From Chlorella sorokiniana (lineage: Eukaryota; Chlorophyta; Trebouxiophyceae; Chlorellales; Chlorellaceae), in NCBI GenBank assembly GCA_025917655.1, contig CP084618.1:558001-622000 (forward strand): a DNA stretch of 64,000 nt, written 5' to 3'. The first letter of the stretch is position 1; each line of letters begins with the position of its first letter. Below are positions 22,761-43,600 of this stretch, in pieces. The notes below the pieces were generated by a model. It searched no databases, had not been told where the DNA came from, and saw only the letters and a list, made by a program, of their open reading frames with translations. Made by a program: the position numbers and the translations under genes.

Positions 22761-24908
22761 TCAGGAGCGCAGCGCGGTGTAGCCCTCCAGCTCCAGCTTG
22801 TCCACCAGCCCCATGTCGCCGGTGGTGACGATGGCCCCAGCCTGCATGATGTGCACGCGGTCGGGCTGGATGTAGTCCAGCAGCCGCTGCAGGGGGGGCG
22901 AGGGAGGGGAGCCAGCGAGGATGAGCGCGAGAGCATAAGGAGAGGGGCAAGCGGGAGCAGCGAGGCTGGGCGCAAGTGCATCGGGGGAGGGGGAGGCGCG
23001 AGCGTGCGCAGCAAGGAACAGCGCGTGTGCATGTCGGAAGCTCTTGTATGTTGTTGGTGAGGGTGGCGAGGGGGAAAGGCGGAAGGGCGGGGGACCAAAT
23101 CCTGCCAGCAAGCGTTTCCACAAGCAGCTGCACACGCCGGTTGGTTGTCTGCTGCCGCCCAGCCAGCCTGCCCATGGCTGTCTCGCCCGCGTACGCCCCA
23201 CGCAACCATCCAACCACATGCACACCCACAAACACACACCAGCCCCCTTCTGGCCTTGCCTTGTAGTGGGTGACCATGAGCACGCCCATGGTTGGCAGCT
23301 GCGACTTGAGGCCGTTGACCGCCTTGGACACATCCCGCAGCGCATCAATGTCCAGGCCTGGGGGCGGCGCAGGGGGCCAGGCGCATGCTCAGCACCGCTG
23401 GCCGCCGTGCACAGGCGGTGCGGTTGCCAAGCACGGCTGCACCGCGCGCCGGCGCGGTCTTCCAACCCAGCCTGCCAGCCGCGGCACCTCGGCCCGGGTG
23501 GCAAGCCACCCATCAGCCGCGTCCAACGCCATCGGTTCCTTCCCTCCCCGGCTGCCACCTCCAGCGGGAGCTCGGGAGGCGCAACAAGCGCCTGCCGTGT
23601 CCTCTCGGCCTCCCGCTCGCCCGGGCTTCCCCTTGAGCCCCAGACCCCCGGGCTTCCCCTTGAGCCCCCACCCGCCCACCCGAGTCAATCTCGTCCAGGA
23701 TGGCCATGTCGGCCTCCAGGCAGGCCAGCTGCAGGATCTCGTTCCGCTTCTTCTCGCCCCCGAGAACCCCTCGTTCACGTTGCGGTTGAGGAAGGCGGGG
23801 TCCATGTTCAGGGCCTCCAGCTGCGGGGGGGGCCAGGCGGGCAGGCAGGGAGGGGCAGGGGTGGGTGCCAGGCGGGGTCGGGGGCCTGAGGCGGGCAGGG
23901 AGGAGCAGGGTCGCGGGCCAGGCGGCGCCAGAAGGGTGCCGCACGGTTGCGGCGCGCCAACGGCAGGGGCCGGCGCCTGCGCGACGGCCGTTCAGCCGTC
24001 GCAAGCCTGGGGTGGAGAGTGAGAGGGGCAGGACCGTTCGCAGCGCGCGGCGAGGGGGGGCAGGCGGCGGCTGCCCACCTTGGGCATGACGTGGGCGTAG
24101 AACTCCAGAGGGTCCAGCTCGGGCTCGCCGCGGGCGGTGCGCCGCGCGTTGGTGGCAATGCGCAGGAAGTCGATGTTGGAGACGCCGGGGATCTCCACGG
24201 GCGACTGGAAGCTGCGGGGGAGCCAGGGGGCCAGCGCAGCGAGACGCTCAAGGGGCGGGGCCTGGCGACGCCGGCCGCAGGCCTGGCGGCGGGCGCCGAC
24301 GCGCGCCTGCGCCTGTACGCGCAGGCGGCTGTGGCTGGCCCACGGCATCAGCAGTCCTACAGCTGTCATGAAGTCAGGATGCAAGCATGTCCGTTCCTGT
24401 TGACCATCGCACCTGAGGAACAGCCCCGATGCGATCGCTCCTCGGGTTCCAGCCCAAACAGGTCCACGCCCTTGTAGGTCGCGCTGCCGCCCGTGACCTC
24501 GTAATCCGGGTGGCCCACCAGCACCTGCATGCGCCACCTGGCTGGTTGGCAGCTGCAGGCCGGCAGGCAGGGTGGCAGACAGGCTGCACCAGCAAACAAA
24601 GCAGGCTGACGGGCCGCCCGCCGCACCTTGGACAGCGTGCTCTTGCCAGACCCGTTCTTGCCCATGATGGCGTGCACCTCGCCCTCCCTCACTGTCAGCG
24701 TGACGCCCTTCAGGATTTCCTGGCCCGTGGCGGCAATCTTGGCGCGAAGGTCCTTCACTTCGAGCAAGACGTCCCCAGCGGCTGCCCGGATGACCAGGCG
24801 ACAGCGGCTCGCCGCACCTGCAGCTGGTCGAGCTCGCTGCATCTGTTGTCGCTGCAGGGAGCAGCGCTGCCAGCCTGAGGTGGAGGCCATGCTTGCTGCA
24901 CAAGCCAT
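22761..24908 (-). CDS. SUFC: Plastid Fe-S cluster assembly ATPase SufC
   Basis: ABC-type ATPase of the SUFBCD scaffold that builds Fe-S clusters in the chloroplast stroma. Exons: 24908-24627, 24524-24413, 24211-24079, 23820-23680, 23357-23260 and 22886-22761. The first about 45 residues are rich in S, R, Q and A, like a transit peptide. Then come DVLLEVKDL, Walker A (GKNGSGKST), the Q-loop region [24 protein letters not shown], Walker B ([10 protein letters not shown]), [13 protein letters not shown], the switch His in MVTHYK, and [11 protein letters not shown]. Two G/C runs are one base short: 24424-24427 (before LFLSFQSP) and 23757-23761 (inside the ABC signature SGGEKKR). With one base at each, every intron phase agrees and the product is 297 aa, near the usual plant size. 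The fifth intron has a GC donor (AAG|GCAAGG). The start is the Met that gives a normal transit peptide. Confidence 0.93.
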
Positions 24909-25592
24909 TGCGGGCAGAAAACGGCTGATCAAGAAGCCTACGTATAATGTCTGTCGCTTTATGTTGCATGCAGAACTTGTTGAGCGGGGTTGTAGGGATG
25001 GGGTACATCGAGATGTACATGCCGCCGCAGGTGGATGGAGCAGGGTGGATGGGCGTCTTGACCCCGCAACCATCTTAAGCTCCAGCTGTCAGTTTCACAT
25101 AGGGTATGTCTTCCATCAAGACAATACACACACTGCCTGTGCCAGGCCCGCGCGCGCGGCCCCCCCGCCCGCGCCCCCAGCCCCTCCCTGGAAAAACCGG
25201 GAACAGGCGTCAACGATGCCCTCCGCTTAGCAACACAACTCTCCCAAGCTGCAGCACAAGAACTGTTGAAAGTGCCGAAGGATTTTCGTCAGTCGCCCTT
25301 CAGATCACGTTGTCACTGCCAAAGCGCTGCAAGCGCAACAGCAAAACGCTCCTACAACGCTCCCACTGTGAGGAATCCGAGGAAGACAACAAAACTCTTC
25401 CCGTGCAGGGATACACATTCTATTACAAGGTTTAACATGTACGGTTTGACGAATCTAAAAATCAGCTTCGATAAACTGCAACTTTGTGGCCGAAAGTATC
25501 AATCTCTTCTGCCAGAACGGGCCTCAGCAAGTGGGCTTCAAGACACGATAAGAAGAGGGTTGAGAGCAGTCAGCTGTGTATGGTATTTTCAA
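24909..25592. other. SufC upstream region and left flank of repeat array
   Basis: About 680 bp upstream of the SufC start. The part near 24909-25110 should hold its promoter. A very C-rich patch lies at 25145-25190. From about 25260 the sequence becomes AT-richer, as in the array that follows. No gene is supported. Confidence 0.4.
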
Positions 25593-25948
25593 GGGTGACA
25601 GAGAAGTTAGATTGGCTTTGATCAAACAGTGGTCCTGAATAGGTAGAGGGAATGCACAAAACTGAGTGAAGAGCAGCAAGGTGCAGCGTCAATGCGCCGA
25701 ACGACATGCAGCTTTCATGCCAGAATATTGTGCAAGAAAAAGGTACATGACGCACTCAAGTTGCCTGCAAATGCTGCTTGCTCGCCACTTGGGAGCACAA
25801 AACAATCAGCTGCAAGAGGAGGTAAGGTGAGCAAAGGCATGAAAATATCATGATACGGATTTGTTTTGCCACAGCATGCCCTTCAGCAATTAGGCAGCCA
25901 ACATGCAACCAAGGTGGCAGTGTGACAGAACACCGACGGCGACTCACA

Positions 25949-26555
25949 TTACAAAGTGCTGGGCCGTGTTCCACGCTTCCGCAGGTGCGAAGGGGCAACA
26001 GAGGCCTGGGAGGGCAGCTCCGGCTCCTGCGTATCTTCCAAGCCAGGCATGTCGCGACATTCCTTTACAGCTGGATCAGCTTTGTCTCCCTCTGCGCTGC
26101 CGTCCACTTGTGGGGGCACATCTACGAGCAGGTGACAAGACATTGTGCACTTCCGCTGATCAATCGACACAGAAACGCCAACCCACTTAACTGCCAACTG
26201 GCACCTCACCTGGCAAGGAGGGCAAGGGGCGCATCGATAGCTCAATATTCATACGTATTCTTTTGCCCTGTTCTCCCATATTGTCAAGCATCTCAAACAG
26301 TTTTCTCTCTTCTTCATGAGCCTTTCTGACCGCCTGGTCAGCGCGCTGTCTTGCAATCACCGCCAAAATTTCGTTCTGCCTCATCCGCCTTCGTACTTCT
26401 GCATGATAGGTTGGCTACTAGGACATCTAACAGCTGTACATCACTTCTGACCTGCAAGGCACAACGCGGAAAGCCTCACCCTCTGGTGTTGCTGGCACTG
26501 GCGGTGTCGGCATCGACGGCGGCGGAGGAGGCTGGGTGCTTTGAGCGGAGCCCAT
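25949..26555 (-). CDS. Small array gene, copy A (intact, MGS.. proline-rich helical protein)
   Basis: I do not recognise this family. Three exons, 26555-26480, 26398-26210 and 26121-25949, join with matching phases to 145 aa. The order is MGSAQSTQ, a five-proline run and a P/T/V stretch; then a charged helical segment (RRRMRQNEILAVIARQRADQ and RKLFEMLDNMGEQGKRI); then a tail with PPQVDGSAE, KECRDMPG and HLRKRGTRPSTL. MGSxxS/T at the start fits an N-myristoylation signal. No membrane segment is seen. Both introns are about 80-90 nt with GTGAGG donors; the second has the acceptor CTCGTAG. All four units keep the same start, splice sites and stop position, which argues for a real gene. The first intron has a second possible acceptor (CTTGCAG) further upstream. 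Confidence 0.65.
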
Positions 26556-27900
26556 GCTGGTCCGAGCCAGCGCTCAATCACGGGACCTCCGAATAAAGCT
26601 GCAGGGTAGGACAACAGAGGCTCTACGCCATCGTTGTGGCCGAAGAGGGCGTCAGCAGGAACCGCACCGTAGAAAACGTGCCGGACTCCTTGCAGACGAG
26701 TGTAACGGCTTGCTGAACGGAAGGAGGTGTGGCGAAAGTCAGGCGAAAGTACCGCCTCGGCTCGCCGGGTACACAGCAGCACGGACGCTTGTCCATCTTG
26801 TTGTGCGCTGCGTACGCCCTTCAAAACACCATGTCGTTAATGTGGACACGAGCCCTCTGCTCGCACAGGCTGGCTTCGGTGCGGTAGTGCAACGGGGAGA
26901 CTCCGCTCAGAGACAGCACACCTGTTTTTTGGCGCCCAGGTGGTGCCCTCTGCCAAATCGTGTGCCTGGCATGATTGATGTGCTGCGTTGCTTCTTCGTG
27001 TGGCTGCCCAGTTAGCTGCCGGCGGTGTGACAGCGTCGATGCAGACCTCCTCACAACTAGCAGATGGTGTTCATGTCGGCAAGGATATGCCGCCAGAGGG
27101 TGCTCTGGCTGCAGCTAAGCAGAGTACTTCCTGGCATCATTCTCTCCATCAATCTCTCCGGCATGCATCCTCATTGCGGTTAGAGCAGCACGTGATGAGA
27201 GCTTGCCAGCCCTGCGGCCACGGGCCACCGCATGGACAAGTACGGATGCCAGTGCCGATGCCAGTGCGATTCACAGCGAGTCACAGCTGCTGCCGCCAGC
27301 CTGGCAGCCTAGAAGCGGCTCACAGTGCTGGAAGGGCAGGCAGCGGCAGCCATGAAGCCTAAGCAGCACAATGCTGTGGCTTGGGTACGCTGCCAGCTAG
27401 CCGGCTGTGTCCACTGCGGTCGACAGCCAGCAGAAACCCCAGCACCTCCAATGCCCGCAGCACACAGGTTTACATCATGTCATCTACAGTAGGTGGAAGC
27501 TGATGACTTGCCGCGCCAGCTCGGTCCTTTCAGCTGCTCGCAGCAGGGCAAGAGCGTAGCATCTGCCAGCGGACGCGAGGTAGATGGGCATTGTGTCTTC
27601 TGCCGACACTGCAGCACAGTGCAGGTAGACTGCATATAGCGCCCGCTCACATCGCACAGCAGTTGTTGTCCCCTGGCAGCAAGCTGTGGCCTTGCTTTTC
27701 CACAGCAAACAGGCTGCGTAGCCTGCATTTGAATCGCTGCCCAACGATTGTAAACGGCAGCTGACGACCCGGTGCTTACAGCAACAGTTCCATCCTGAGT
27801 GCAGGCTCAGCTTGGCTTGCTGCAACAGTATTGTGTGCCAAGCAGCCAGGTCGTCAGCCTGGCGACAGCCAAGGTGATGCTGCAGGCTGGGGGCGCGCGG

Positions 27901-28480
27901 CGGCGAGGCGGCACAAGCCGCTGCTGAACCACCAAAGCCGCAGCGGCTACGGTTGCCAGCACCCGCCAGTGGGCAGCGAGCCTCCGCTGCCTTGGCATGA
28001 TGGTTTGCAGCAGCTGCCCCTTGCCAGCCTCATCTGGATCAGCAGCAGCCGCGGTCTGTGTTGCAGCGCCCGGGAACCGCAGTGGGGAGCGCGGCGGCGA
28101 GGCGGCACAAGCCGCTGCTGAACCACCAAAGCCGCAGTGGCCGCGGTTGCCAGCACCCGCCAGTGGTCAGCGAGCCTCCGCTGCCTTGGCATGATGGTTT
28201 GCAGCAGCTGCCCCTTGCCAGCCTCATCTGGATCAGCAGCAGCCGCGGTCTGTGTTGCAGCGCCCAGGAGACCGCAGTGGGGAGCGCGGCGGCGAGGCGG
28301 CATAAGCCGCTGCTGAACCACCAAAGCCGCAGTGGCCACGGTCGCCAGCGCCCGCCAGTGGGCAGCGAGCCTCCGCTGCCTTGGCATGATGGTTTGCAGC
28401 AGCTGCCGCTTATCAGCCTCATCTGGATCAGCAGCAGCCGCGCTCTGTGTTGCAGCGCCCAGGAACCGCAGTGGGTGCGG
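27901..28480. repeat. Threefold tandem copy of a 195-bp block in unit A
   Basis: Three consecutive copies of about 195 bp begin near 27901, 28094 and 28290, each opening with cggcgaggcggcac. Units B, C and D hold only one copy each. On the minus strand each copy can be read as PRQRRLAAHWRxLAT..AALVVQQRL. Copy 1 is out of frame with copies 2 and 3, so a continuous repeat protein is doubtful. Confidence 0.85.
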
Positions 28481-29019
28481 GCTCGCTGCCCGTTTGTGGA
28501 ACAGGCGGAAGATGCGCAGCTGGACCTGTTGCACAGCTTGGAGGACTTTTGGCGGGCGCATGGCAGCAGGATGTTGGCACCGCATTCTGTGACCTCTGCA
28601 CCCTGTTGCGTAGTCGTCAAAAGAGGCGCTGGCAGCAGCAACACCTCCTGCAGCCAGATTTGCTGCATCAACTGTTCCTCTGCAACACGCTGATCATTAG
28701 GCAAGCGGCTCCTACAGGGCTTCGTTTGGCAGAGGAAGGCAACTCAATGCTGTCCATCCTGTGGCTGCGCGGGTTTGTGCGGTATGCAAACGGTACCAGC
28801 CCCAGTCCCGCCGTTGAGTGCAGCGGTGCAGCGCAGCTGAAGAGTTTTTGACGCGACATGAGCAGGCAAGCATTGTTTGCACAGCTTCGCACAAAGAGTT
28901 TGAAAAATTTGCTGTCTGCATGATGCAGGGTTTTGCCAGCATTGACCGCAGTGCAACAGCGCAGGTTACGTAACAGAATGTGCAATGCATTGCTCATTCA
29001 TACAGCACCCTTGTATCTC

Positions 29020-29215
29020 AGCGAGCAGGGCTCCCAAGCTTGGCAGCACGGCCGCGATGGCAGCTGCCATCGCCTGCTTTTTCAACCTTTCAGTTTCGTG
29101 CTTTGGGCGCATGAGGCGTGGAAATAAAGATGTGCTTGGAGTTACAGCTGCAGCTGTGGCAGCATCATCAGTGGGCTGCCATCGGCACCGGTGGAGTTGC
29201 CCTTAAAGACTGAGA
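29020..29215 (-). pseudogene. Decayed MON2 exon fragment, unit A
   Basis: The minus strand reads MRPKHETERLKKQAMAAA where the MON2 exon at about 43455-43640 reads VRPEHVIELWEEQAAAAA. The DNA upstream of this block (29110-29210) also aligns with the MON2 exon coding QLYPEYIFTIVRL. Stop codons interrupt the frame. It is a fragment only and is not expected to be functional. Confidence 0.65.
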
Positions 29216-29680
29216 CTGGAAGAGGCTTTTAAGCTACATGTAAGAAGAAGGGTGACCTTGTCCAGCGCGGTCAACTGTACATGCAATTGAAAAGGGTGAC
29301 AGACAAATCAAGGAAGAGTGGATTTAAGCACCCAGTGGTCTTGACGAGGTAGAGGAAATGCACAAAACGAGTGACAAGCAGCGAGTGCACCGTCAATGCG
29401 CTGAACGCCCTGTAGCTTTCATGCCGCATCATGGACTTGTCCGTTTCAGTCCAGGATAATGTGCAAGAACAAGGTGCATGACGCACTCCAGATGCCTGCG
29501 AGTGCTGCTTGGTCAACGCTTGGGAGCACAACAATCAGCTGCAAGACGTGGAGGGAGGTGGACACAGGCACGAAGATATCAGGACACGGCAAAGTGTTGC
29601 CACAGCATGCCCTTCAGCAATCAGGCAGCCAACATGCAACCATAACAGCAGCGTAACAGAACAGTCAACGGCCACTCACA

Positions 29681-30297
29681 TCACAAAGTGCTGGACCTTG
29701 CTGCACGCTTCCGAAGGTGGGAAGGGGCAACGGAGACCTGTGATGGCAGTGCAGGCTGCAGCTGATCTTCAAAGCCAGGAAAATCGCGACATTCATTTGC
29801 AGCTGGATCAGGTGAGTCGGCTTCTGTGATGCCGTCCACTTGGGGGGCATATCTACGAGCAGGTGCAAAGACATTGTTCACCTGCGCTGTTTCATTTGAT
29901 TATTTTCAAACCAAAATGCCAACAGACCAACCAGACTGCCAAGCACATCTCACCAGGCAAGGGGGTAAGGGCTCCAATGCTGGCTCCATGCGCTCTCGCA
30001 ATCTTCTGCCCTCTTCTCCCATATTGTCAAGCATCTCAAACAGTTTCCTCCGTCCTTCATGAGCGTCTCGAATCAGTTGGTACACGCCCTGTCTTGCAAT
30101 CACCGCCTTGACTTTGTCCTGCCTCATCCGCCTTTGCAATTCTGCATGCAAGGTCGGCCAATAAGTGATCAGACAGCCGAAACGTCACTTCTGACCGCCA
30201 AGACACACCGCAGAAATCCTCACCCTCTGGCGTTGCTGCGCGCCGGCGGCGGCGGCGGCGGAGGAGGAGGAGGCTGGGCGCTGTGAGCGGAGCCCAT
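29681..30297 (-). pseudogene. Small array gene, copy B (frame broken)
   Basis: The same three exons as copy A: 30297-30224, 30141-29954 and 29852-29681. The start (MGSAHSAQ plus ten prolines), helical segment (RKLFEMLDNMGEEGRRLRER) and tail (ECRDFPGFED, SHLRKRAARSSTL) are all recognisable. Compared with copy A, exon 1 is one base long modulo three, exon 2 is one short at a C run (29961-29965 on the plus strand), and exon 3 lacks one base near its start. Some of these may be sequencing errors, but three together suggest a broken copy. Confidence 0.6.
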
Positions 30298-30627
30298 GCT
30301 CGTCCGAGCTCGATCACGGGACCACCGAATAAAGCTGCAGGAAGGTAGGACAGCAGAGGCTCCACGCCATCGTCGTGGCCGAAGAGGGCGTCCAGCAGGA
30401 GCCACGCCGTAGAAAACGTGCCGGACTCCTTGCAGACGAGCGTAACGGCTTGCTGAACGGAAGGAGGTGTGGCGAAAGTCAGGCGAAAGTACCGCCTCGG
30501 CTCGCCGGGTACACAGCAGCACGGACACTTGTCCATCTTGTTGCGCGCTCGTACGCCCTTCAAAGCACACCATGTCGTTAATGTGGACACGAGCCCTCTG
30601 CTCGCACAGGCTGGCTTCGGTGCGGTA

Positions 30628-31608
30628 CAGCTCCGGCGTGTCAACTTGAGAGGTTTTGTGGACCCAAAAAACGCTATGTGCCGTATTTTAAGCCCCACCA
30701 AGCGTAAAAGTGGAGCGTAAAACCCGCTTCGCGCTCCATGAAATGTGGCATGAAGCGCGAAGCGTGTAGCTTGAAGCGTAAAACATGTGCGTAAAACTTG
30801 TAGCATGGAGCGTATAACTTATAATTTGAAGTTTTTATCATATTCTCAATCCCCTGGGCCGTCGAAACGCTGTTTCAGCATTCAACCCCATCCCAGCAAC
30901 TGCTCTTCTGCGACCTCAATATGGTGGTGGCTGCGCTGGTGCTGGTCGTATGGAAGGCTTGGCCGGGAGCGGTGAACTGAGATCCAGCAACTGGCTGCCC
31001 CTGCCCGCCACCGCCGCCCAGCACCCTGCCCTTGCCGAGCCATGCATGGCCTGTCCTGGTCGCACTAGGGATCTCCTGCTGCAAATGGTCAGCTGCTGGG
31101 GTATACTGTGGGGCTGGCAAACTGATTCCTGGTCTGGATCCTGCGACGAGTGCTGCACGGTAACCGCAGGCGCTTGCTGCGCTGTGGCGCTGGCTCGCAA
31201 CTGTCGTCAGACAGGTCAATTACAGAATCTGCACTCGGCTAGCTTCACCAGGGGTGGGGAGAAGAGCCAATGCTTGCAGGATGCACATTAAGCACTGCTA
31301 CACCTGTCCACGCATCCAATCCCTTGAACCCGCTGGGGTTGAATGCTGAAACAGCGTTTTGGCGGCCCAGGGGATTGAGAATATGATTAGAACTCCCAGT
31401 TATAAGTTATACGCTTCAAGCTACAAGTTTTACGCTTCAAGTTGTACGCTTCACGCTTCGCGCTTCACGCTTCGCGCTTCATGCCACGCGCTTCATGCTT
31501 CACGCTTCGCGCTACGCGGCACTTTTTAAGCTCCTTGAAGCGCATTTCAGGGTCCCTTAAAGTGAGTTGAAGCCCTATAAAGTCTCTCAAGTTGACCCGC
31601 CGGAGCTG
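30628..31608. mobile_element. Non-autonomous inverted-repeat element, TA target duplication
   Basis: A 981-bp insertion in unit B with long terminal inverted repeats (about 30628-30891 and 31334-31608). Both ends begin CAGCTCCGGCG and continue GTCAACTTGAGAG with one mismatch between. It is flanked by TA on both sides (30626-30627, 31609-31610). Unit A keeps the empty site (single TA at 26885-26886), which proves insertion. The arms are full of gaagcg/cgcttc motifs. The 440-bp centre encodes nothing resembling a transposase. TA duplication suggests mobilisation by a Tc1/mariner-type enzyme; this is an inference. It lies about 330 bp upstream of the start of small-gene copy B. Confidence 0.88.
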
Positions 31609-33364
31609 TAGTGCAACGGGGGAGACTCCGCTCAGAGACAGCACACCTGTTTTCCAACGCCCAGGTGGTGCCTTCTACCAACCAAATCGTGTGGCTGGCA
31701 TGATTGATGTGCTGCGTTGCTTCTTCGTGTGGCTGCCCATTTAGCTGCCGGCGAGTGACAGCGTCGATGCATACCTCCTCACAACCAGCAGATGGTATTC
31801 ATGTCGGCAAGGATGTGCCGCCAGAGGGTGCTCTGGCTGCAGCTAAGCAGAGTACTTCCTGGCATCATTCTCTCCATCAAGCTCTCCGGCATGCATCCTC
31901 ATTGCGGTTAGAGCAGCACGTGATGAGAGCTTGCCAGCCCTGCGGCCACGGGCCACCGCATGGACAAGTACCGATGCCAGTGCCGATGCCAGTGCGATTC
32001 ACAGCGAGTCACAGCTGCTGCCGCCAGCCTGGCAGCCTAGAAGCGGCTGGAGCGCTGGAAGCAGAGGCAGCACGATGCTGTCAGCCTGGCAACGCTGCCA
32101 GCTGATTGCAAGCTGCTGGCGAAAGCTGGGCTCTGCAAACCAGCCAGCGGCAAACCCAGCACCTTTGATGCCTGCAACACACATGTTTGCATCATGTCAT
32201 CCACAGCAACTGGAAGCTGATGGACTTGCCGCGCCAACTCGATCCTCTCAGCTCCTTGCAGCATGGCATTTGCGCAGCATCTGCCAGCAGACGCCAAGCA
32301 GATGGGCACTTTGGCTTCTGCCGACACTGCAGCACAGCACGGGCAGCCTGCATGCTGCGCGCGCTCACACTGCACAGCAACCAATGCGCCTGTCGGCAAG
32401 CTATGGGCTTGCGTTTTTCGACATCAATTAGGCTGCATAGCCTGCATTTGATCCGCTGCCTCGTGATTTTAGGCAGCAGCAGACGACTTGGTGCTTATAG
32501 CCACACTTGCATCCTGAGTGCAGGCACAGCTTGGCTTTCTGGAGCAGTGTTGTGTGCCAAGCAGCCTGCCTGTCAGCCTGGCGACAGCCAAGGTGATGCT
32601 GCAGGCTGGGGAACGCGGCGGCGAGGCGGCACAAGCCGCCGCTGAACCACCGAAGCCGCAGTGGCTACGGTTGCCAGCGCCCGCCAGTGGGCAGCAAGCT
32701 TCCGCTGCCTTGGCATGATGGTTTGCAGCAGCTGCCCCTTACCAGCCTCAGCAAGATCAGCAGCAGCTGTGTGCTGTGTTGCAGCGCACCAGAAACCGCA
32801 GAGGATGCGCGCTCGCCGCGCGTTTGTGAAGCAGGCGGACGGTGCGCAGCTGGACCTGTTGCACAGCTTGTTGGACGTATGGCTGGCGCAATGCAGCAGG
32901 GAGTTAGCACCGCGTTCTGTGGCCTCTGCACCTCATTGCGCAGTCGTCAATAGAGGCGCTGGCAGCAGCAACACCTCCTGCAGCCTGAGTTGCTGCATTG
33001 ACAGTCCCTCTGCAACACGCTGTTCATCATGCATGCGGCTCCCACAGGGCTCCATCCTGGCAGAGCAGGCGACTCGACGCTGTCCATCCAGCGGCTGCAA
33101 GGGTTGTTGCGCTCTGCAGGCAGCACCAGCCCCAGTCACGCTTTGAGTGCAGCGGTGCAGCGCCGCTGATGAAGGTTTGACACGGTGAATGGCATGAGCA
33201 GGCAACCAATGTTTGCACAGCTTCACACAAGAAGGATGAAGGATGAGATTGAAAGATTCCTGTCAGCATGATGCAGGTTTGTGCCAGCGCTGTTCGCAGT
33301 GCAGCGGCGCATGATGCATGAATGTGCAAAGATTGCCCTCTGATCAGCCCCCTTGCGTCTCTGT

Positions 33365-33600
33365 GCGCAGGCCTCCCAAAGTCGGCGGCATGGCCGTCGC
33401 GGCAGCTGCAGCTGCCACCGCCTGCTCCTCCCACCTTTCAGTTTCGTGCTCTGGGCGCATGAGACGCAGTCATAGGTGCGGTCATAAAGATGTGCGTGGA
33501 GCTACGCTGCAGCTGTGGAACGGGGCGGGAGCCAGCTGCAGCAGCATCATCAGTGGGCTGCCATCGGCACCGGTGGAGTTGCCCTTAAAGACTGAGACTG
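33365..33600 (-). pseudogene. Decayed MON2 exon fragment, unit B
   Basis: This is the clearest of the three fragments. The minus strand reads LRLMRPEHETERWEEQAVAA against MON2 VRLVRPEHVIELWEEQAAAA. The DNA identity continues over roughly 230 bp (33375-33600 against about 43440-43640), with stop codons and small indels upstream of that peptide. Confidence 0.75.
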
Positions 33601-34037
33601 GAAGAGGCTTTAAGCTACATGTAAGAAGAAGCCAGCGCAGTCAACTGCACATGCAATCAAAGAGAGTGAGAGAAATTAAGGTAGAGAAAATTTATGCAGC
33701 CAGGGGTCTTGACAAGTGAAGGGAGATTGCATACAACGAGTGACAAGTATCGAGGTGCAGCACCAACGCGCCGAACGCCCTGCAGCTTTCATGCCGCATC
33801 ATGTAGTCAGCCGTTACAGTCCATGATTGTGCATGACTAAGGTACATGACGCACTCAAAATGCTTGCGGGTGCTGCTTGGGAGCACAGCAATCAGCTGCA
33901 AGACGTGGAGGGAGGTGGACACAGGCATGAAGACATCAGGACACGGCAAGGTGTTGCCACAGCATGCCCTTCAGCAATCAGGCAGCCAACATGCAACCAT
34001 AATAGCAGCGTGACAGAACAGCCGACGGCGACTCACA

Positions 34038-34640
34038 TCACAACGTGCTGGACCTTGCTGCACGCTTCCGCAGGTGCGTAGCGGCAATGGAGGCCTGGGA
34101 GGGCAGCGCCAGCTGCAGAGCACCTTCAAAGCCAGGAATATCGCGACATTCATTTGCAGCTGGATCAGCTCTGTCGTTTTCTGCGCTGCCGTCCACTTGT
34201 GGGGGCATATCTGCGAGCAGGTGCAAAGAAATTGTTCACCTGCGCTGCTCGATCAACATCCAAACGCCAGCCCAATAAACTGCCATGCAACAACTCACCG
34301 GGCAAGGGGGCAAGGGCTGCATTTGTGGCTCCACACTCTCTCGAATTTTTCTTCCCAGTTCTCCCATACCGTCAAGCAGCTCAAGCATGCTCGACCGTGC
34401 TGCATGAGCTTCTCGCAAGGCTTGGTAAGCGTGTTGTTGTATAATCACCTGTGTAATTCTAAGCTGCCTCAGGTTCCTTTGTACTTCTGCATGCAAGGTC
34501 GGCAACTAGGTGAGCACACAGCTGACCGTCACTTCTGACCTGCAAGACAAAACGCCGAAAGCCTCACCCTCTGGCGTTGGCGTTGGCAGCGGTGGCGTTG
34601 GCGGCGGCGGAGGAGGCTGGGTGCTTTGAGCTGAGCCCAT
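34038..34640 (-). CDS. Small array gene, copy C
   Basis: Exons 34640-34568, 34486-34299 and 34210-34038. It starts MGSAQSTQ, then a six-proline run and TPPLPTPTPE. The helical segment differs from copy A (EVQRNLRQLRITQVI, MLELLDGMGELGRKI) and the tail is highly conserved (ECRDIPGFEG, THLRKRAARSSTL). Exon 2 is one base shorter than in copy A, at the C run corresponding to plus-strand 34306-34310. As written, exon 3 is entered in the wrong phase. Given the many one-base-short runs in this window, the copy may be intact in the organism. Confidence 0.5.
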
Positions 34641-36619
34641 GCTCGACCGAGGCAACGACCTGTCACGGGACCTGTAAATAGGGCTGCAGGAAGGTAGGAC
34701 TAGAAGGGCTCCACGCCCTCGTTGTGGCCGATGAGGACGGCCAGTGGAACCACGCCGTGGAAACACGTGTCGGTCCACTCGCAGACGAAGACAACAGCTT
34801 GCTGAACGGCCTTGTTGAGAGGTGGTGCGCGCAGAAGTACCGCCTCGGTTCGCCCTGTACAAAGTGGCGCAGACACTCACCCATCTTGTTGTGCACTGCG
34901 TATACCCTTCAAAGTACACCACGTCTTGAAACTGGGCTTCCGCCCCTTCCTCGCACGGTTGGCTTGGCTTTGGTGCGGCAGAGTCGGGGCCATTCGCCAA
35001 ATAGTTTCTGTGCCTGGCATCATTATGCGCTTGTGCTGCACAGCCTCTTCCTAAACAGAGGGCTGCTGAGAGTAGTGAAACAGACTTTGGCATAGCCACA
35101 GCACGGCACATCCCAACCCGTGCAGGCAGCGGTGGGCGGAAGTTGTTGTCTGCCCGCTGCTGCCAAGAGAAGTCTACCAGAGCCGCGCCGCGAGCTGCGG
35201 GGACTGTTACTGCATCATGGCGACACCCCTCACACGCACCAGATGGGGCTCATGTCGGCAAAGGTACAGGGCCAGCGGGTGCTGAGGCCGCTGGAAGCGC
35301 ATACAGCGGCAGCCATGCAGCCCAAGCAGCACGATGCTGCCGGCCTGGCAACGCCGCCAGCTGATTGCAAGCTACTGGAGAAAGCTGGGCTCTGCAATCT
35401 TGCCAGCGGCAACCCCAGCACCTCCAATGCCCACAGCACAGGATTATATCATGTCATTCACATTAGGCGGAAGCTGATGGACTTGCCGCGCCACCTCGGT
35501 CCTCTCAGCTGCTCTCAGCAGGGCAGGAGCGCAGCATCTGCCAGCAGACGCTAGGCCGATGGGCACTTTGGCATCGGCCGACACTGCAGCACAGCGCAAG
35601 CAGCTTGCATGCTGTGTGTGCTCGCACTTCACAAATACCAATGCGTTTGTCCGTGAGCTATTGGCTTGCGTTTTCCACATCAATCAGGCTGCATAGCCTG
35701 CATTTGATCCGCTGCCTCACGATTGTTGCCGGCAGCGTCAGCAGACGACCTGGTGCTTATAGCCACAGTTGCATCCTGAGTGCAGGCACAGCTTGGCTTT
35801 CTGGAGCAGTGCTGTTCAGCAAGCAGCCTGCCTGTCAGCCTGGCGACAGCCAAGGTGATGCTGCAGGCTGGGGAACGCGGCGGCGAGGCGGCACAAGCCG
35901 CCGCTGAACCACCGAAGCCGCAGTGGCTACGGTTGCCAGCGCCCGCCAGTGGGCAGCAAGCTTCCGCTGCCTTGGCATGATGGTTTGCAGCAGCTGCCCC
36001 TTACCAGCCTCAGCAGATCAGCAGCAGCTGTGTGCTGTGTTGCAGCGCACCAGAAACCGCAGAGGATGCGCGCTCGCCGCGCGTTTGTGAAGCAGGCGGA
36101 CGGCGCGCAGCTGGACCTGTTGCACAGCTTGTTGGACGTATGGCTGGCGCAATGCAGCAGGGAGTTAGCACCGCGTTCTGTGGCCTCTGCACCTCATTGC
36201 GCAGTCGTCAAAGAGGCGCTGGCAGCAGCAACACCTCCTGCAGCCTGAGTTGCTGCATTGACAGTCCCTCTGTAACACGCTGATCAGCAGGCAAGCTGAT
36301 CCCACAGGGCTCCATCCTAGCAGAGGCAGGCGGCTTGATGCTGCCCATCCAGTGGCTGCGCGGCTTTGTGCGCTCTGCAGACGGCACCAGCCCCAGTCCC
36401 TCTTTGAGTGCAGCGGCGCAGTGCCGATGATGAAGGTTTGACGCGACAAAATGGCACAAGCAGGCAAGCATTGTTTGCACAGCTTCGCACAAAGAGTTTC
36501 AAGGATGCCTGTTGGTCAGCATGATGCAGGGTTTTGCCAGCGTTGACCGCAGTGCAACGGCACATAATGCGTGAATGTGTAAAACACTGCCCATTGAATC
36601 AGCCCCCTTGTATCACAGT

Positions 36620-36850
36620 GCGCAGGCCTTCAAAGGTCGGCGGCACAAGCGCAACGGCAGCGGGCGCCGACACTGCCTTCTGCCCCCACATTTCAGCTGA
36701 GTGCTCTGCAGGGCCCAGCTGGCTGCATGAGGCGGCCATCAAGATGTGCTCGAAGTTACACCCGCGGCTGTGGAATGTGGGTGGGCGGCAGCTGTGGCAG
36801 CATCGTCAACGCTGCCATCTGCACCAGTGGAGTTGCATTCAAGGGCTACA
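36620..36850 (-). pseudogene. Decayed MON2 exon fragment, unit C
   Basis: Weaker but collinear with the fragments of units A and B. The minus strand reads AEMWGQKAVSAPAAVALVPP where MON2 has IELWEEQAAAAAVAD. The adjoining block (36750-36850) still resembles the MON2 exon DNA. It is probably non-functional. Confidence 0.5.
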
Positions 36851-36916
36851 GGAGGCTTGAAGATACGTGTAAGAAGAAGGGTGACCTTGTCCAGCGCAGT
36901 TAACTGTACATGCAAT

Positions 36917-39455
36917 CTAAGAGGGTGACAGAGAAATCAAGGAAGAGTGGCTATGAGCACCCAGTGGACTTGACGAGGTAGAGGAGATGCACAAAACGAG
37001 TGACAAGCATCGAGGTGCAGTGCCGATGCGCTGAACGCCATGCAGCTTTCACGCCGCATCATGGAATCAGCAGCTGCAGTTCACAATAATGTGCATGAAT
37101 GAGGTACATGACGCTCTGAAAATGCCTGCAGGTGCTGCTTGGTCAACGCTTGGGAGCACAGTAATCAGCTGCAAGACGTGGAGGGGAGGTGAACACAGGC
37201 ATGAGATATCAGGATACAAAGCATTGCCAGAAAATACCTTTCAGTGATCAGGCTGCCGACATGCAACCATGGCAGCAGCGTGCCAGAACAACCATCGTCG
37301 ACTCACATCACAACGTGTTGGACCTTGCTGTACGCTTCCGCAGGTGGGAAGGGGCAACGGAGACCTGTGATGGCAGTGCAGGCTGCAGTGCATCTTCATT
37401 GCCAGGAATGTCGCGACATTCCTTTGCAGCTGGATCAGGTGAGTCGGCTTCTGCGCTGCCGTCCAGTTGTCGGGGCATATCTACGAGCAGGGGCAAAGAC
37501 ATTGTTCACCTGCGCTGCTCAATCAACATCGAAAGGTTAGCCCAATAAACTGCCATGCAACAACTCACCGGGCAAGGGGGCAAGGGCTGCATTTGTGGCT
37601 CCACACTCTCTCGAATTTTTCTTCCCAGTTCTCCCATACCATCAAGCAGCTCAAGCATGCTCGACCGTGCTGCATGAGCTTCTCGCAAGGCTTGGTAAGC
37701 GTGTTGTTGTATAATCACCTGTGTAATTCTAAGCTGCCTCAGGTTCCTTTGTACTTCTGCATGCAAGGTCGGCAACTAGGTGAGCACACAGCTGACCGTC
37801 ACTTCTGACCTGCAAGACAAAACGCCGAAAGCCTCACCCTCTGGCGTTGGCGTTGGCAGCGGTGGCGTTGGCGGCGGCGGAGGAGGCTGGGTGCTTTGAG
37901 CTAAGCCCATGCTCGTCCGAGCCAACGATCGGCCACGAGACCTCCAAATAGGGCTGCAGGAAGGTAGGACGACAGAGACTCCACACCCGCGTCTTGGCCG
38001 ATGGGGACGTCCAGTAGCAGCCACCACGCCGTGGCAAATTGTCGGGCTGCTTATGGACGAAAACCACGCCTTGCCGAACGGCCTGGTGAGAAGGTGGTAG
38101 GCGCACAAGTACCGCCTTGGCTCATCCTGTACAAAGCAGAGGGTTTAGTTGCCCATCTTGTTGCGCGCTGCGTACAACCTTTAGAAAGCGCAGCATCCTG
38201 AAGTTGGACTTGCGCTCTTTGCTCGCACGGTTGGCTTTGGTGCGGCAATTTTTCAAAGGTGGTGCCCTCCGCCAACCAATTTCTGTGCCTGACATCATGA
38301 TGTGCTGCGCCACTTCTTCCTTAAAAACGGCTACCGAGATAAGTGAAGTAGACCTTGGCGTAGCACGGCATGTTCCAACCCACGCATGCAGCGGAAGGAA
38401 GCGTTTGTGTTGCCTGCCCGCAATAGAAGTCAGAGCCGCACCGCGAGTCACCGGGACTGTCACAGCGTCAATGATGAAAGCCCGCAGAGACAAAGGAGGT
38501 GGTTTGCAAAGGTATGGCGCGAGCACCAGCCAGGCTGGTGCTGTGGCCGCAGCGAGGCAGAGGCCTTCCTGGCATCAATCTCTCCATCGTGCACCCTCGT
38601 TGCAGCTGGAGCAGCACGTGATGAGAGCTTGCCGGCCTTGCGATCCCTGGGCAGCGCGTGGACCAGGCACTGACGCACTGCGATGCCTAGCGTGCCACAG
38701 CTGGCGCCGCCAGCCTGGTAGCCTACAAGCGGCTGGAAGCGCTGGAAGCGCAGGCAGCGGCAGCCATGGAGCCCAAGCAGCACGATGCTGTCGGCCTGGC
38801 ACCGCTATCAGCTGATTGCAAGTGGCTGGTGAAAGCTTAGCTCTGCAAACCAGCCAGTGGCAACCCCAGCACCTTTTGATGCCTGCAACACAAAGGCTTG
38901 ACGTGAAGCCATCCACAGCAACTGGAAGCTCATGGACTTGCAGTGCAAGTTCGATGCTTTCAGCTCCTTCCAGCAGGGCAGGAACGCAGCACCTGCCAGC
39001 AGACGCTAGGCAGACGGGCACTTTGGTTCAGGCGACACTGCAGCACAGCGCAGGCAGCCTGCATGCTGCGCACGCTCAGACTGCACAGCAACCAATGCGC
39101 CTGTTGGCAAGCTATGGGCTTGCGTTTTCCACATCAAACAAGCTGCATAGCCTGCATTTGATCCGCTGCCTTGCGATTGTGGCGGCAGCGGCAGCTGACG
39201 ACCTGGTGCTTCTGGCTGCACCTTCATCCTGAGTGCAGGCACAGCTTGGCTTTCTGGAGCAGTGCTGCTCAGCAAGCAGCCTTCTCGTCAGCCAAGTGAC
39301 AGCCAAGGTGATGCTGTAGGCTGGTGAGTGCGGCGACGAGGCGGCACCAGCCGCTGCTGAACCACCAAAGCCGCAGTGACTACGGTTGCCAGCGCCGGCC
39401 AGTGGGCGGCGAGCCTCCGCTGCCTTGGCATGATGGTTTGCAGCAGCTGCCCCTT
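36917..39455. repeat. Array unit D (right end truncated)
   Basis: About 2.5 kb. It contains small-gene copy D, a degraded upstream module (37940-38110), a module on the minus strand with CLASAGRCC (about 38950-39120) and most of one 195-bp block. Similarity ends at about 39455 and the MON2-like piece is missing. Confidence 0.75.
37308..37910 (-). CDS. Small array gene, copy D
   Basis: Exons 37910-37838, 37756-37569 and 37480-37308. It starts MGLAQSTQ, followed by the same proline-rich stretch as copy C. Exons 1-2 and the first intron are nearly identical to copy C, while exon 3 is clearly different (PRQLDGSAE, ECRDIPGNED, SHLRKRTARSNTL). Like copy C it is one base short at a C run in exon 2 (plus-strand 37576-37580), so the frame is broken as written. 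Confidence 0.5.
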
Positions 39456-39642
39456 CTGTCGCTGTCTGCCCCCTCCCCCGCCCGCTTCTTTGCCCTTTGT
39501 GATTCAAGCAAACAACAAATCAAGCAGCTGTTGCTTGTGATCTCACATTTTCGGTTTTCTTATGTGCCAATGATGCATTTGCGTTCCATCATTCAGCTGT
39601 TTATACCTCGGCAGCCACTTGGTGCAATTACAGTTGTGTTGC

Positions 39643-40567
39643 TTATGCTACAAGTAAAGCTGATAGCAACATCTTTGCACATTGGTCACCGCATGCGCTG
39701 CAGCAGAGACGCCACCATCGCGGCCAGCCATTTGAACACTTCAAAGGTTTGGCCAGCCCCGAGAAGAGGCTGAGGGTCATGACTAGGTCGTGGTCTGTCA
39801 TCTCGTGGATGACCAGGATCACAGTGAAGATGGCAACGGCCGTCACAACCCGGGCAGACCAGTCCACTGCGGGTGGAAGTGGAACGGGGAGATGGATGTA
39901 AGAACGCGCCTTTCAGCAAGCACGTCCACCTTGCTTTGTTTCGTTACCTTCGTGCTGAGCACGAGCGGGCAGCGCAGCTGGCACCGCCGCCTGTGCCGCA
40001 ATCGGCACTGCCACCTCGTCCACGGCCGGCAGCGCAACATCCTGCACAGCGGCCTGCACAGCTGCAGCCTGTCCAACAGCGCCCGGAATGCGCGCCAGCC
40101 TTGTCAGGCTGTTGGCAATGGCTGTGATTCTCGCAGAGTTGGCTGTCGCTGTTTGCCAAAAAACCCGCAGAATCGTCTCCGCCACCTCCTCAGGGAGCGC
40201 CCCATTCTCCACCAGTCGAGCGATGGTTTCCTCCATCTGCCTTCCCTCATTTGCGTCCATTGCCTCCATTGCTAATGCAGATGCGATGATGCAAACTGAC
40301 TGCAGCAAGGAGGGCTTGAGAGGTTGGCAACGAGCAGGTAAAGCATGTTGTGGCTGGTAAGGAACTCACACGTGAGGCCCACTGTGCCTGCAGGCTGTAG
40401 ATGGCACTTTCAGTGTAAAGGCTGAATTCCCCGTAGTCTCCCAAGCTTGCCAACGTGTTTGAGCCACAACAAGTGCTGCCTGAAGCGCTGCTGGCTTTTC
40501 GAGGCAGGATGCAGGTGCAGGAGACTTTGATGGAACCAGCAATCAGCGGAAGAGGGTCAGAATCCAC
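39643..40567 (-). CDS. Unrecognised three-exon gene with one membrane segment
   Basis: Exons 40567-40370, 40299-39948 and 39866-39643 join with matching phases to 257 aa. The donors are GTGAGT and GTAACG. I do not recognise the product. Exon 2 begins SVCIIASALA and carries a helical stretch (EETIARLVENGALPEEVAET, RITAIANSLTRLAR) followed by an A/V-rich region. Exon 3 carries a hydrophobic segment (VVTAVAIFTVILVI) and then HEMTDHDLVMTLSLFSGLAK. After that point a shift of one base would give a more natural ending (FEVFKWLAAMVASLLQRMR, stop at 39686), so the C terminus may be affected by a base error near 39745. It lies between the array and MON2. The start is the first Met and is uncertain; the gap to the MON2 end is only about 90 bp. 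Confidence 0.5.
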
Positions 40568-40656
40568 TCAAATCATGACTCATGCATCCTATCCTGTTCT
40601 TTCCAGCAAGCCAGCTCATCCATCACAACTTCCTCTCCTGAATGTGCACTGTTCAT

Positions 40657-43600
40657 TCATGAATTGCAGAGCAGCATCGCTTGCCAGGCAAGGAGCAGGA
40701 ACGCGCTGCAGCATGGCGCGCCACGGCAGTGCCTCCCGCCGGCTCGCAGCCAGCCGCACCGCCCGAAGGGCAGGCTGACGGGGCACAAGTGGCGCCCGTC
40801 CTGCCCTGCCCCCGGACAGCCGCAGAAGTTACAGGATCGACGCAGCACAAGCGCACCGGTGGCAGGGCGGATCAGGGTTCGGCGGCCGCGCTGGTGCCAG
40901 CGCGCCGCCCCCGCCTGCTCCGCCGCCTGCTGCAGCGCCACGGTGCCCAGGCCGAGCTCCGCCCCCGCCAGCAGCAGGGTGTGCGACACAAACTCCCGCA
41001 CGCGCGGCTCGCGGCAGGTCACGCACCCGCACAGCGCGCCGTACAGCAGCAGCAGGTGGGTGCGCTCGCGGCCGCGCGCCGCCACCTCGGGCCGCGCCCG
41101 CAGCGTGGCTACCACCTGCGGGGGCGGTGGGTGGCGGAAGCGGCAGCGGCGGCAGCTGGGCAGCTGCAGTGCGCGGCAGAGGCTGCGTCTTGGACGTCAG
41201 GATGGGCACGCGCCGCAGCAAAAGCCTCGCGCATGCGGAGCGGGCAGCCCCCAAACAAGCAGAGCGGGCAGCGCCTCAACAAGCGGAGCGGGCAGCCCCG
41301 CAGCCCCCGCTGCCCAGCCGCCCACCTGCGCCAGGAACTCGCTGGGCGGCATGGCGGCGTCGGCCACCTGGGGCGCCAGCGTCAGCGAGGCCAGCACCTC
41401 CAGGATGCACAGCACCTCCTCCAGCCGAGCGCGGGCGGCGGCGGCGCTGCGGCGGCAGGGCGGCGGCGGGGCGGCGGCGCGTGTGTGTGCGTGGAGGGGG
41501 ATGAGGGAGGCGCTGCGGAAGGTGAGGGGGCACACGGGCAGGCGCCGGGCCCCAGCCCCCTAGCTGCAGCAGGGGGCCGCCCGGCAGCGCCTCGCCCGGC
41601 GGCGCGGCCGCACGCGGCGGCGGCGGCGGCCCCCACCTTGCGCCCGGCTGCGAGCCTGCGCTGGGCGGGCGGCCGCCGTCGTCGGCGTAGGCGCGCAGCA
41701 CGGCGTCGCAGCGCGCCAGGAAGGCGGGCAGGGCGAGTTGGGAGACCTCCAGCAGGCAGCCGCCGGGGTCGTCGGCGCCGCCGCGGGAGCACAGCGCAAA
41801 CATCTTGCGGATGCACACGTGGGCAAAGTTGCTGCTGGTGGCCGCCTGCGGGGCCCCGGGGGAGGCGGGGGGCACACGCGGCATGGGCGAGCGCCCGGCC
41901 GGCGGCCCCACCCAAGAGGGGGCGCGCGTCGTCGGGCTGCCGCCCCGCACCCGACCCCCGGCCTCGCCCGCGCGGCTGCCTGGCGCTGCGGCGCCGGGCA
42001 GCGGGGGCGCGCATGCGTGGCTCACCCCCGCCCAAACACCCACCCACGCTGCCGCTCACCCTGCATGTCCAGCACCCTCCCCCAGCCCCCACCCCACCTG
42101 CTGCACGTTGAGCTGGCGGGGCCGGGCCGCCCTCGGTCCACGATGGACACCAGGCGGCGCTTCATGGCCAGCGGCGCAGCGCCGCACTGCGTCAGCACCG
42201 TGTCGGCCAGGCAGTCCAGCACCGCCGCCTCCAGCTCAGCGTCCTGCCGCGCCTGCTGCGCGTCCAGCGGCGGCGGCGCCGCCGCCGCTGGGGCGCAGCC
42301 GCCGCGGGCTCGCCGGCCGCCGGGGGCGCCGTCGCCGCGCAGGGGGTCCCCGGGGGCCGGCGGCGGCCCCCCCGCCGGCCGCAGCCTCCGGCGGCGGGCG
42401 CCGCCGGGCGGCGCGCCGGCGTCGGAGCCCTGCCGCGCGGGCGCCGCCACCAGCGTGTTGGCGCCCAGCAGGAACATCTCGAGCACGTCGGCCAGCGCCT
42501 CCCAGCTGGTCGCGGTGTCCTCGCCCGCGGCGGCGGCGGCGGCCAGCGCGGGCAGCCCCGCGGGCACAGCGGCGTTGAAGGCCCGTGCGCCGATGCGCCA
42601 CAGGCTCTCGTGGTACAGGATGTACCGTACCTGCACCCCGCCCGGGCACCGTGAACCGAGGGTGAACCGACGTGGCGGCACTGGCAGGGTGGGGTGCACG
42701 CGGCGCGGCAGCAACGGCAGGGCCGGTGGCTGGGCAGGCGCCCTGAGCAGCTGACCAAGTGGCGGTTTGATCACCGCCACAAGGCAGGCGCAGGCTGCAT
42801 CGAATGCGTGCGCATGCCCGGGCGGCGCACGCCCGCGGCGTCGCACCTCCATGCAGCGCCCCAGCCCGCCGACCACCGACGCAAAGGTGGCGGCGCGCAC
42901 GCTCAGGGGGCGGCCTGGTATGCCGCCAGCAGCTGCTCGATCACCTGCGGGGGGCAAAGCAGGGGGGCCTGCTGTGAGGGGAGCGCTTGCACAGGCGTGG
43001 GCTCGCGGGCTGGGCGACAAGACGCGGGTGAGCGTGCTGAGAGGTGGATGGAGGGGTTGGTGTGACCCTCATACCGCAGCCTGTAGCTCGCTATAAGGAC
43101 ACGCCCAGCTGCATGCAGCTTGACGAGATTCAGCCCCGCACCCTCTCTACCCTCAATCCTTTTCATTCTCACACCCACCTTCTGCAGGAAGCGGCGTGCG
43201 GCTTGACAAGAACCAGCCCCCCTTCCCCCGCCCACCCTCCACACACGCGCGCCACCCACCCATCACACCCACCCACCCACCCACCTTCTCCAGGAAGGCC
43301 GAGGTCAGCGCAAACTTGGCCTGCGCCACCTGGCCAGGAGGCTGCTTCACCGTGCCCGCAGCCGCCGCCCGGGCGGCGCCGTTGGCCTGCCCTGCGGCCG
43401 GCGGGCCTGCTGCCGGCGGCGGCACGCCCCTGCGGCAGGCGCGCCGGCCGCGGCGTCCGCCACGGCTGCCGCCGCCGCCTGCTCCTCCCACAGCTCAATC
43501 ACGTGCTCTGGGCGCACGAGGCGCACGATGGTGAAGATGTACTCCGGGTACAGCTGCGGTACGTGGGTGGGCGCCAGCCGCGGCAGCATCGCCAACGCCG

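Follow-up and report, generated by a model that had tools for sequence, protein, structure and literature searches.

A four-unit tandem array in Chlorella sorokiniana as a probable locus of a small, putatively orphan gene family in birth-and-death

Array units and gene copies

The genomic window analysed here comprises 64,000 nt of Chlorella sorokiniana (assembly GCA_025917655.1, contig CP084618.1, positions 558,001 to 622,000) and contains a tandem array of four repeat units, U1 to U4, each with a small three-exon gene on the minus strand. Coordinates count from the first letter of the window unless another contig (written C1, C2 and so on) is named. A reading made before any database search (the sequence-only reading) had proposed four direct repeats and the local amplification of a small gene, and both are borne out: the units lie head-to-tail (BLAST pieces of at least 700 nt, 72-85% alike), and the gene occurs in four tandem copies between 25534 and 39455. 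The shared sequence amounts to ~3.3 kb per unit, and the array region (25.5-39.5 kb) forms a low-GC island with a GC content of 0.577 vs 0.692 in the remainder of the window. As a DNA query against the 38.8-Mb genome, the 607-bp gene finds the four array places only. Two other places, at 43.5 kb and on C3, gave DNA matches to short pieces of the unit body (152-169 and 70-93 nt). On C3 (C3:1032750-1032820, L012) the pieces are 71-93 nt long and match at 77-82%, and an inverted repeat there has matches to further unit-body pieces in both of its arms.

The gene sits at the same place in every unit and has the same three parts (Table 1), as had been described: an exon starting with MG[SL]A[QH]S that runs into prolines before a GTGAGG donor, a charged-helix exon, and an exon reading ECRDxPG...HLRKR...TL-stop. 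Joined, the U1 exons give an uninterrupted reading frame of 145 aa, and both introns are in phase 1. The statement that splice sites, frame design and stop are identical held for the first donor, GTGAGG in four of four copies, and failed for the frame design and the stop. The common frame design applies to one of the four copies, U1; relative to U1, exon 2 of U2, U3 and U4 is missing 1 nt at its end, and because of this their exon 3 falls out of frame with the shared sites. The stop is TAA in U1 and TGA in U2, U3 and U4. Exon 1 measures 76 nt in U1, 74 nt in U2, and 73 nt in both U3 and U4. Besides the exon-2 end, U2 carries two more length changes, namely exon 1 at 74 nt and one base fewer in exon 3. 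A single difference separates U3 and U4 over the 174 nt of exon 2 that were counted.

Alternative donors (GT[AG] or GC[AG]AG) were scanned within 45 nt, and alternative acceptors within 40 nt. In-frame joins through such sites number 8 in U2 and 12 each in U3 and U4. All five displayed of the 8 in U2 need a shifted first acceptor, and the five displayed of the 12 in each of U3 and U4 all need a GTGTGG donor 38 nt upstream. Rescue of U2-U4 by splice-site choice is possible, and is not favoured.

Table 1. Coordinates of the repeat units, gene exons, other unit contents and dispersed family copies
Feature	Position	Strand	Remarks
Repeat unit U1	25534-29263	-	sole frame-intact array copy
Repeat unit U2	29264-~33640	-	right end approximate
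Repeat unit U3	~33640-36854	-	left end approximate
Repeat unit U4	36854-39455	-	truncated at 39455
U1 exon 1	26480-26555	-	MGSAQSTQPPPPPSMPTPPVPATPE; donor GTGAGG, phase 1
U1 exon 2	26210-26398	-	charged helix; donor GTGAGG, phase 1
U1 exon 3	25949-26121	-	ECRDMPG...HLRKR tail; stop TAA
U2 exon 1	30224-30297	-	74 nt; phase 2, out of step with exon 2
U2 exon 2	29954-30141	-	end 1 nt shorter than in U1
U2 exon 3	29681-29852	-	one base fewer near start
U3 exon 1	34568-34640	-	phase 1
U3 exon 2	34299-34486	-	ends in phase 0, putting exon 3 out of frame
U3 exon 3	34038-34210	-	open in family frame; stop TGA
U4 exon 1	37838-37910	-	MGLAQST...; phase 1
U4 exon 2	37569-37756	-	frame lesion as in U3
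U4 exon 3	37308-37480	-	open in family frame; stop TGA
194-bp element	27890-28475		three in tandem, in U1
981-bp terminal-inverted-repeat element	30628-31608		inserted in U2; TA on both sides; absent from U1
Decayed fragment of MON2-like stretch 43454-43523	29049-29118	-	in U1
Decayed fragment of stretch 43465-43616	33408-33576	-	in U2
Decayed fragment of stretch 43553-43611	36767-36825	-	in U3
Family copy B	C5:1269219-1269915
Family copy C	C5:1294251-1294932
Family copy D	C2 ~948300-948975

Relatives on other contigs and the predicted protein

The family extends beyond the array: seven copies were detected on three contigs, four in the array, two on C5 (B and C) and one on C2 (D). Copies B, C and D have the exon order of the array, with an MGSSLS[ST]...PP exon, a helix exon and a PSQ...LxKR exon, and their tails follow the pattern 'GVEDA.QP..PSQ....AQL.KR'. 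Copy C is intact, with 148 aa in exons of 46, 219 and 182 nt, phase-1 introns as in U1, and canonical splice sites (GTGAGG and GTAAGC donors, CAG acceptors). Being intact under the same scheme, copy C lends support to the three-exon model. Exon 1 of copy B is out of step, and an acceptor 17 nt further in would rescue the frame. In copy D, 7 nt of exon 2 are lost, and nearby alternative sites offered no join that restores the frame.

A search of the genome with the U1 protein finds the four array copies and, at E 0.005 to 0.42, weakly similar places on C2 and C5. A C5 peptide searched back groups the two C5 copies and the C2 copy as one (E 8e-29 to 3e-14) and gives weak matches (E 0.008-0.045) to three of the array's four copies. 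Searches with the U4 peptide and with D agree, the best cross-group E being 9e-4 in each. All these matches across the groups lie in exon 3. Searched by itself, exon 2 links neither group to the other and was therefore placed by order, intron phase and helical character. At the DNA level, the array and the dispersed loci share short exon-3 matches (at most 76 nt) and one 52-nt unit-body piece, and little else aligns; this is the pattern of exons outlasting their surroundings. The relatives on two other chromosomes make a gene family believable.

Nine further genome matches (E 0.034 to 5) were not accepted: one each on C6, C1, C3, C7, C8 and C12, C2:3245510, and two on C9. Re-searching by separate exons covered C6 and C1. 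It gave no more than a 19-aa match on C6, in a region sharing no DNA with the array, and no more than a match at E = 0.83 on C1. Copy B is bracketed by a 3.2-kb direct repeat, 92% alike (C5:1260362-1263577 and 1270047-1273270; L039, L066). A tandem repeat of ~4.3-kb spacing, 93% alike, lies near copy D (C2:954839-956030 and 959150-960332; L071). The latter stretch (954.8-960.3 kb) is low in GC (0.52-0.56), some of its frames resemble what we take to be glycosyltransferase pieces, and it is unrelated to the array.

N-myristoylation requires a start of the form M-G-x-x-x-S/T. Glycine 2 and serine 6 are present in all seven members, and the suggestion of a possible myristoyl anchor stands. The genome encodes an N-myristoyltransferase (PF02799, in four adjacent stretches at C1:4121443-4122357, all above the cut-off). 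Structure models cover exon 2 of copies C and U1. In each model a long helix is followed by a break at a conserved glycine and then by a short helix, and the mean predicted local distance difference test score (pLDDT) is 90 for C and 88 for U1.

The remark that the product fits no recognised family agrees with the searches. All seven members were compared with Pfam, the array profile and copy B with PDB sequences, and U1 and C alone with NCBIfam and PHROGs; none of these comparisons yielded a significant match. VIR_N and DUF6615 in Pfam (E 0.14 and 0.46) and a designed helical barrel among PDB sequences (E 0.064) were non-significant, as were all 46 Foldseek matches of the copy-C exon-2 model (best E 1.1). 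Pattern scans came back empty for viral contigs, queried with exon 2 of C and with exon 3 from both C and U1, and for GTDB species, queried with exon 2 of C, at a depth that detects close relatives only; as far as tested, a viral or prokaryotic origin is rejected. Among the literature titles and abstract openings listed, none names the family.

Divergence within the units and their other contents

Identity was compared by unit part in five array pairs, with U3-U4 set apart. Exon 1 is 84-87% identical, exon 2 67-76% and exon 3 80-91%; the introns stand at 75-84%, the 3' flank at 79-88%, and the body at 27.0-27.9 kb at 77-86%. The 5' flank is 96% identical in U1-U2 and 72-77% in the other four pairs, and the flank of these four is the only part clearly worse kept than exons 1 and 3. 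The claim that other unit sequence had decayed more than the gene was thus not upheld: exons 1 and 3 lie near the rest, and with exon 2 among the least kept parts, conservation of the gene above its unit is ruled out.

Exons 1 and 2 of U3 and U4 are 99% alike, within a 400-nt tract that includes intron 1. Tracts of at least 96% identity were seen between neighbouring units only, and these look conversion-like. The divergence of exon 2 exceeds that of exon 3 and of the 3' flank and, in U1-U3 and U2-U3, that of the introns (uncorrected); in U1-U2 it exceeds that of neither exon 3 nor the introns. Nonsynonymous (dN) and synonymous (dS) divergence are both raised in exon 2 (dS 0.35-0.56 by counting), which patchy gene conversion of the surroundings explains with no need for selection. 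Indels in exons, relative to non-genic unit DNA, number 2 against 8.0 expected in U1-U3 (p = 0.014); the test gives p = 0.31 for U1-U2 and p = 0.17 for U2-U3.

By counting, dN/dS within the array is 0.70-1.28 for exon 2 (five pairs, U3-U4 being left out because just one site differs) and, across six pairs, 0.56-1.08 for exon 3. The maximum-likelihood codon estimates are 1.23 for exon 2 of U1, U2 and U3 (without U4, which is nearly the same as U3) and 1.01 for exon 3 of all four copies; the other (background) branches stand at 0.70 and 0.55, respectively, not significantly below 1. Among distant members, exon 3 gives 0.30-0.61 in 12 of 14 pairs and 0.75 and 0.96 in the others, at dS 0.77-1.58, and exon 2 is saturated in seven of the 14 distant pairs and gives 0.45-0.91 in the other seven. 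Change within the array looks like that expected under weak selection or none. A dN/dS near 1 between copies, which the sequence-only reading had itself named as speaking against its gene, is what the array contains, and together with frame lesions in three of four copies it leaves the idea that the array genes are selected unsupported.

A drift model that considers stops only gives a probability of 0.017-0.033, at 0.6-1.0 changes per site, that both long exons of U1 and C remain free of stops. The corresponding value is 0.04-0.06 for exon 2 open in three lineages and 0.31 for exon 3 open in all four array copies. As a sign of constraint, these probabilities are suggestive, not conclusive.

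To the right of the array lies a MON2-like gene (40500-48500, minus strand), recognised by its Mon2_C matches: three successive stretches hold one piece each (E 2e-6 to 3e-5), and taken frame by frame none of the pieces reaches the curated cut-off. Its 43.5-kb stretch is presumably an exon, judging by the open frame, position and strand. Fragments in U1, U2 and U3 are 68-85% alike to 43454-43616 of this neighbour, and the amplified unit therefore consists of the gene plus captured dead neighbour DNA. The units also hold other elements. The 194-bp element, tripled in U1, has one copy each in U2, U3 and U4, the last cut at its end. The 981-bp element of U2 is flanked by TA on both sides and absent from U1; its ends are CAGCTCCGGCG... 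and ...CCGGAGCTG, and inner inverted arms are also present. A search with 30628-31602 found a copy ~86% alike at C8:560681-561706, and the element looks like a short non-autonomous DNA transposon. A six-frame search of 25500-39500 against Pfam (stops as X, E<=1) showed no further genes with known domains in the array, and Rfam at gathering scores showed no structured RNA in the window; there was no tRNA.

On the left, an ABC-transporter gene starts at 24600-25090 on the minus strand (PF00005), which we take to be SufC with a transit peptide. Small minus-strand open frames at 39700-40370 (MEAMDANEGRQMEETIARLV... and a separate hydrophobic piece) have no Pfam match and possibly form a small tail-anchored protein beside the array end.

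Readings of the array and their meaning

The array is probably one locus of a small, fast-evolving protein-coding family in birth-and-death that is largely decaying, and it is best read as mostly relics beside one intact copy, U1. The same exon order and frame at unlinked loci, and the intactness of U1 and C with canonical GT-AG introns, argue for this reading. It is also favoured by the low chance under drift of stop-free long exons in U1 and C, the exon-3 dN/dS below 1 between distant members, the like exon-2 models of C and U1, the N-myristoyltransferase, the near-identical tracts between neighbours and the MON2-like fragments in three units. Orphan-gene tandem arrays with birth-and-death occur in algal and plant multigene families, e.g., the NCL/OPR cluster of Chlamydomonas. 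The present array resembles them in its head-to-tail copies, its near-identical, conversion-like tracts between neighbours, its intact and damaged copies side by side and its dispersed relatives, and differs in its very small size (four units) and in a product with no recognised domain. The family would be a new orphan family of this familiar kind.

Amplification to four copies would have occurred most simply by unequal exchange, with a ~3.3-kb unit that carried the captured piece of the MON2-like gene; the units would since have been patched by gene conversion between neighbours as the array decayed. U1 and C may have a present coding function. The ~145-aa product would most likely be a cytosolic membrane-edge protein, with a glycine-2 N-myristoylation signal, a proline-rich linker that is presumably flexible, a helix-break-helix rod as its core, and a tail, acidic then basic, that is probably disordered. 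Held at the membrane by lipid and basic tail, it could offer the helix to a partner; our best guess is a helix protein with a lipid anchor, located at the membrane. Small N-myristoylated membrane-edge proteins share with it the glycine and serine of the signal, a proline stretch after the signal and a basic C-terminal tail, and the genome has the matching enzyme. No sequence relation to them was found, and the modification here is a predicted one.

Several observations weigh against birth-and-death of a coding family. No selection test is significant: for all omega (dN/dS) = 1 vs two ratios, twice the log-likelihood difference is 5.3 for exon 3 (2 degrees of freedom) and 2.6 for exon 2. The closest dispersed pair, B and C, has a dN/dS of 0.56 in exon 2 but 0.95 in exon 3. 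Five of the seven copies (U2, U3, U4, B and D) are frame-damaged under the common plan, leaving only U1 and C intact. GC content at third codon positions (GC3) in the family is 0.48-0.62 vs 0.77 and 0.84 in two neighbouring open stretches, an unexpected level for a gene expressed at this place. The array and the dispersed copies are tied together by exon 3 (genome-search E 9e-4 to 0.4, depending on the query), exon 1 and exon order; searches of the genome with exon 2 crossed in neither direction, and exon 2 of C is only 18-23% identical to the array.

The strongest competitor takes all seven copies for relics of a once-coding family from which nothing is made now, the array being dead DNA spread and homogenised by recombination. 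The array dN/dS of about 1, the frame problems in five of seven copies, the low GC3 and the dead MON2-like exon fragment in the unit body all fit it. However, U1 and C, deeply diverged as they are, have both kept a frame that is open throughout and canonical splice sites, and in one of three pairs (U1-U3) exons are poorer in indels than non-genic unit DNA. We regard it as unlikely, yet deserving of serious attention.

A functional, diversifying array is less likely still. The exon-2 helix would then be under positive selection in an arms race or recognition, with conversion shuffling the variants. In its fullest form, which we hold equally doubtful, this would be an undescribed myristoylated-helix family whose helix exon diversifies faster than neutral as lipid signal and basic tail are kept, a recognition or defence array with copies seeded on other chromosomes. 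The exon-2 excess is seen against introns (p = 0.032 in U1-U3, 0.01 in U2-U3) and against exon 3 (p = 0.0004 and 0.0002), uncorrected for 12 tests. Third-position changes are the fewest (positions 1/2/3: 21/23/16 in U1-U3, 23/18/15 in U2-U3), the exon-2 omega is 1.23, and exon 2 is stop-free in all copies, with the low chance under drift given above. On the other hand, that omega is indistinguishable from 1 (log-likelihood -560.45 vs -560.67), exon-2 dS is raised as well, as patchy conversion of the flanks explains, U1-U2 lacks the excess over introns (p = 1; position counts 19/11/14), and the frame lesions affect three of four array copies.

Two further proposals are very improbable. Chance open frames within a repeat would suit the short exons, the weak constraint and the ease with which drift leaves exon 3 open in the array, but the exon plan recurs at three places on two other contigs, with hardly any DNA outside the gene aligning. 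Derivation of the helix from a known module would start from a charged helix of similar length in the N-terminal SNARE of SNAP-25 (E = 0.088 against PDB sequences, for a profile built from the array's four proteins, of which three are composites) or from the helical DM14 domain of Lgd, a hairpin (E = 2.8, rank 7 in Foldseek with the copy-C exon-2 model), but both scores are non-significant, for none of the seven members does Pfam list a SNARE or DM14 family at E<=1, and a bare two-helix model matches many proteins.

A tandem array is by itself no sign of selection. Low-GC three-exon genes of 145 aa are easily overlooked in annotation beside genes with a GC3 of ~0.8. If U1 or C is expressed, the locus would offer a compact natural case of a new small gene spreading, being patched by conversion and dying, with the dispersed relatives serving as outgroups.

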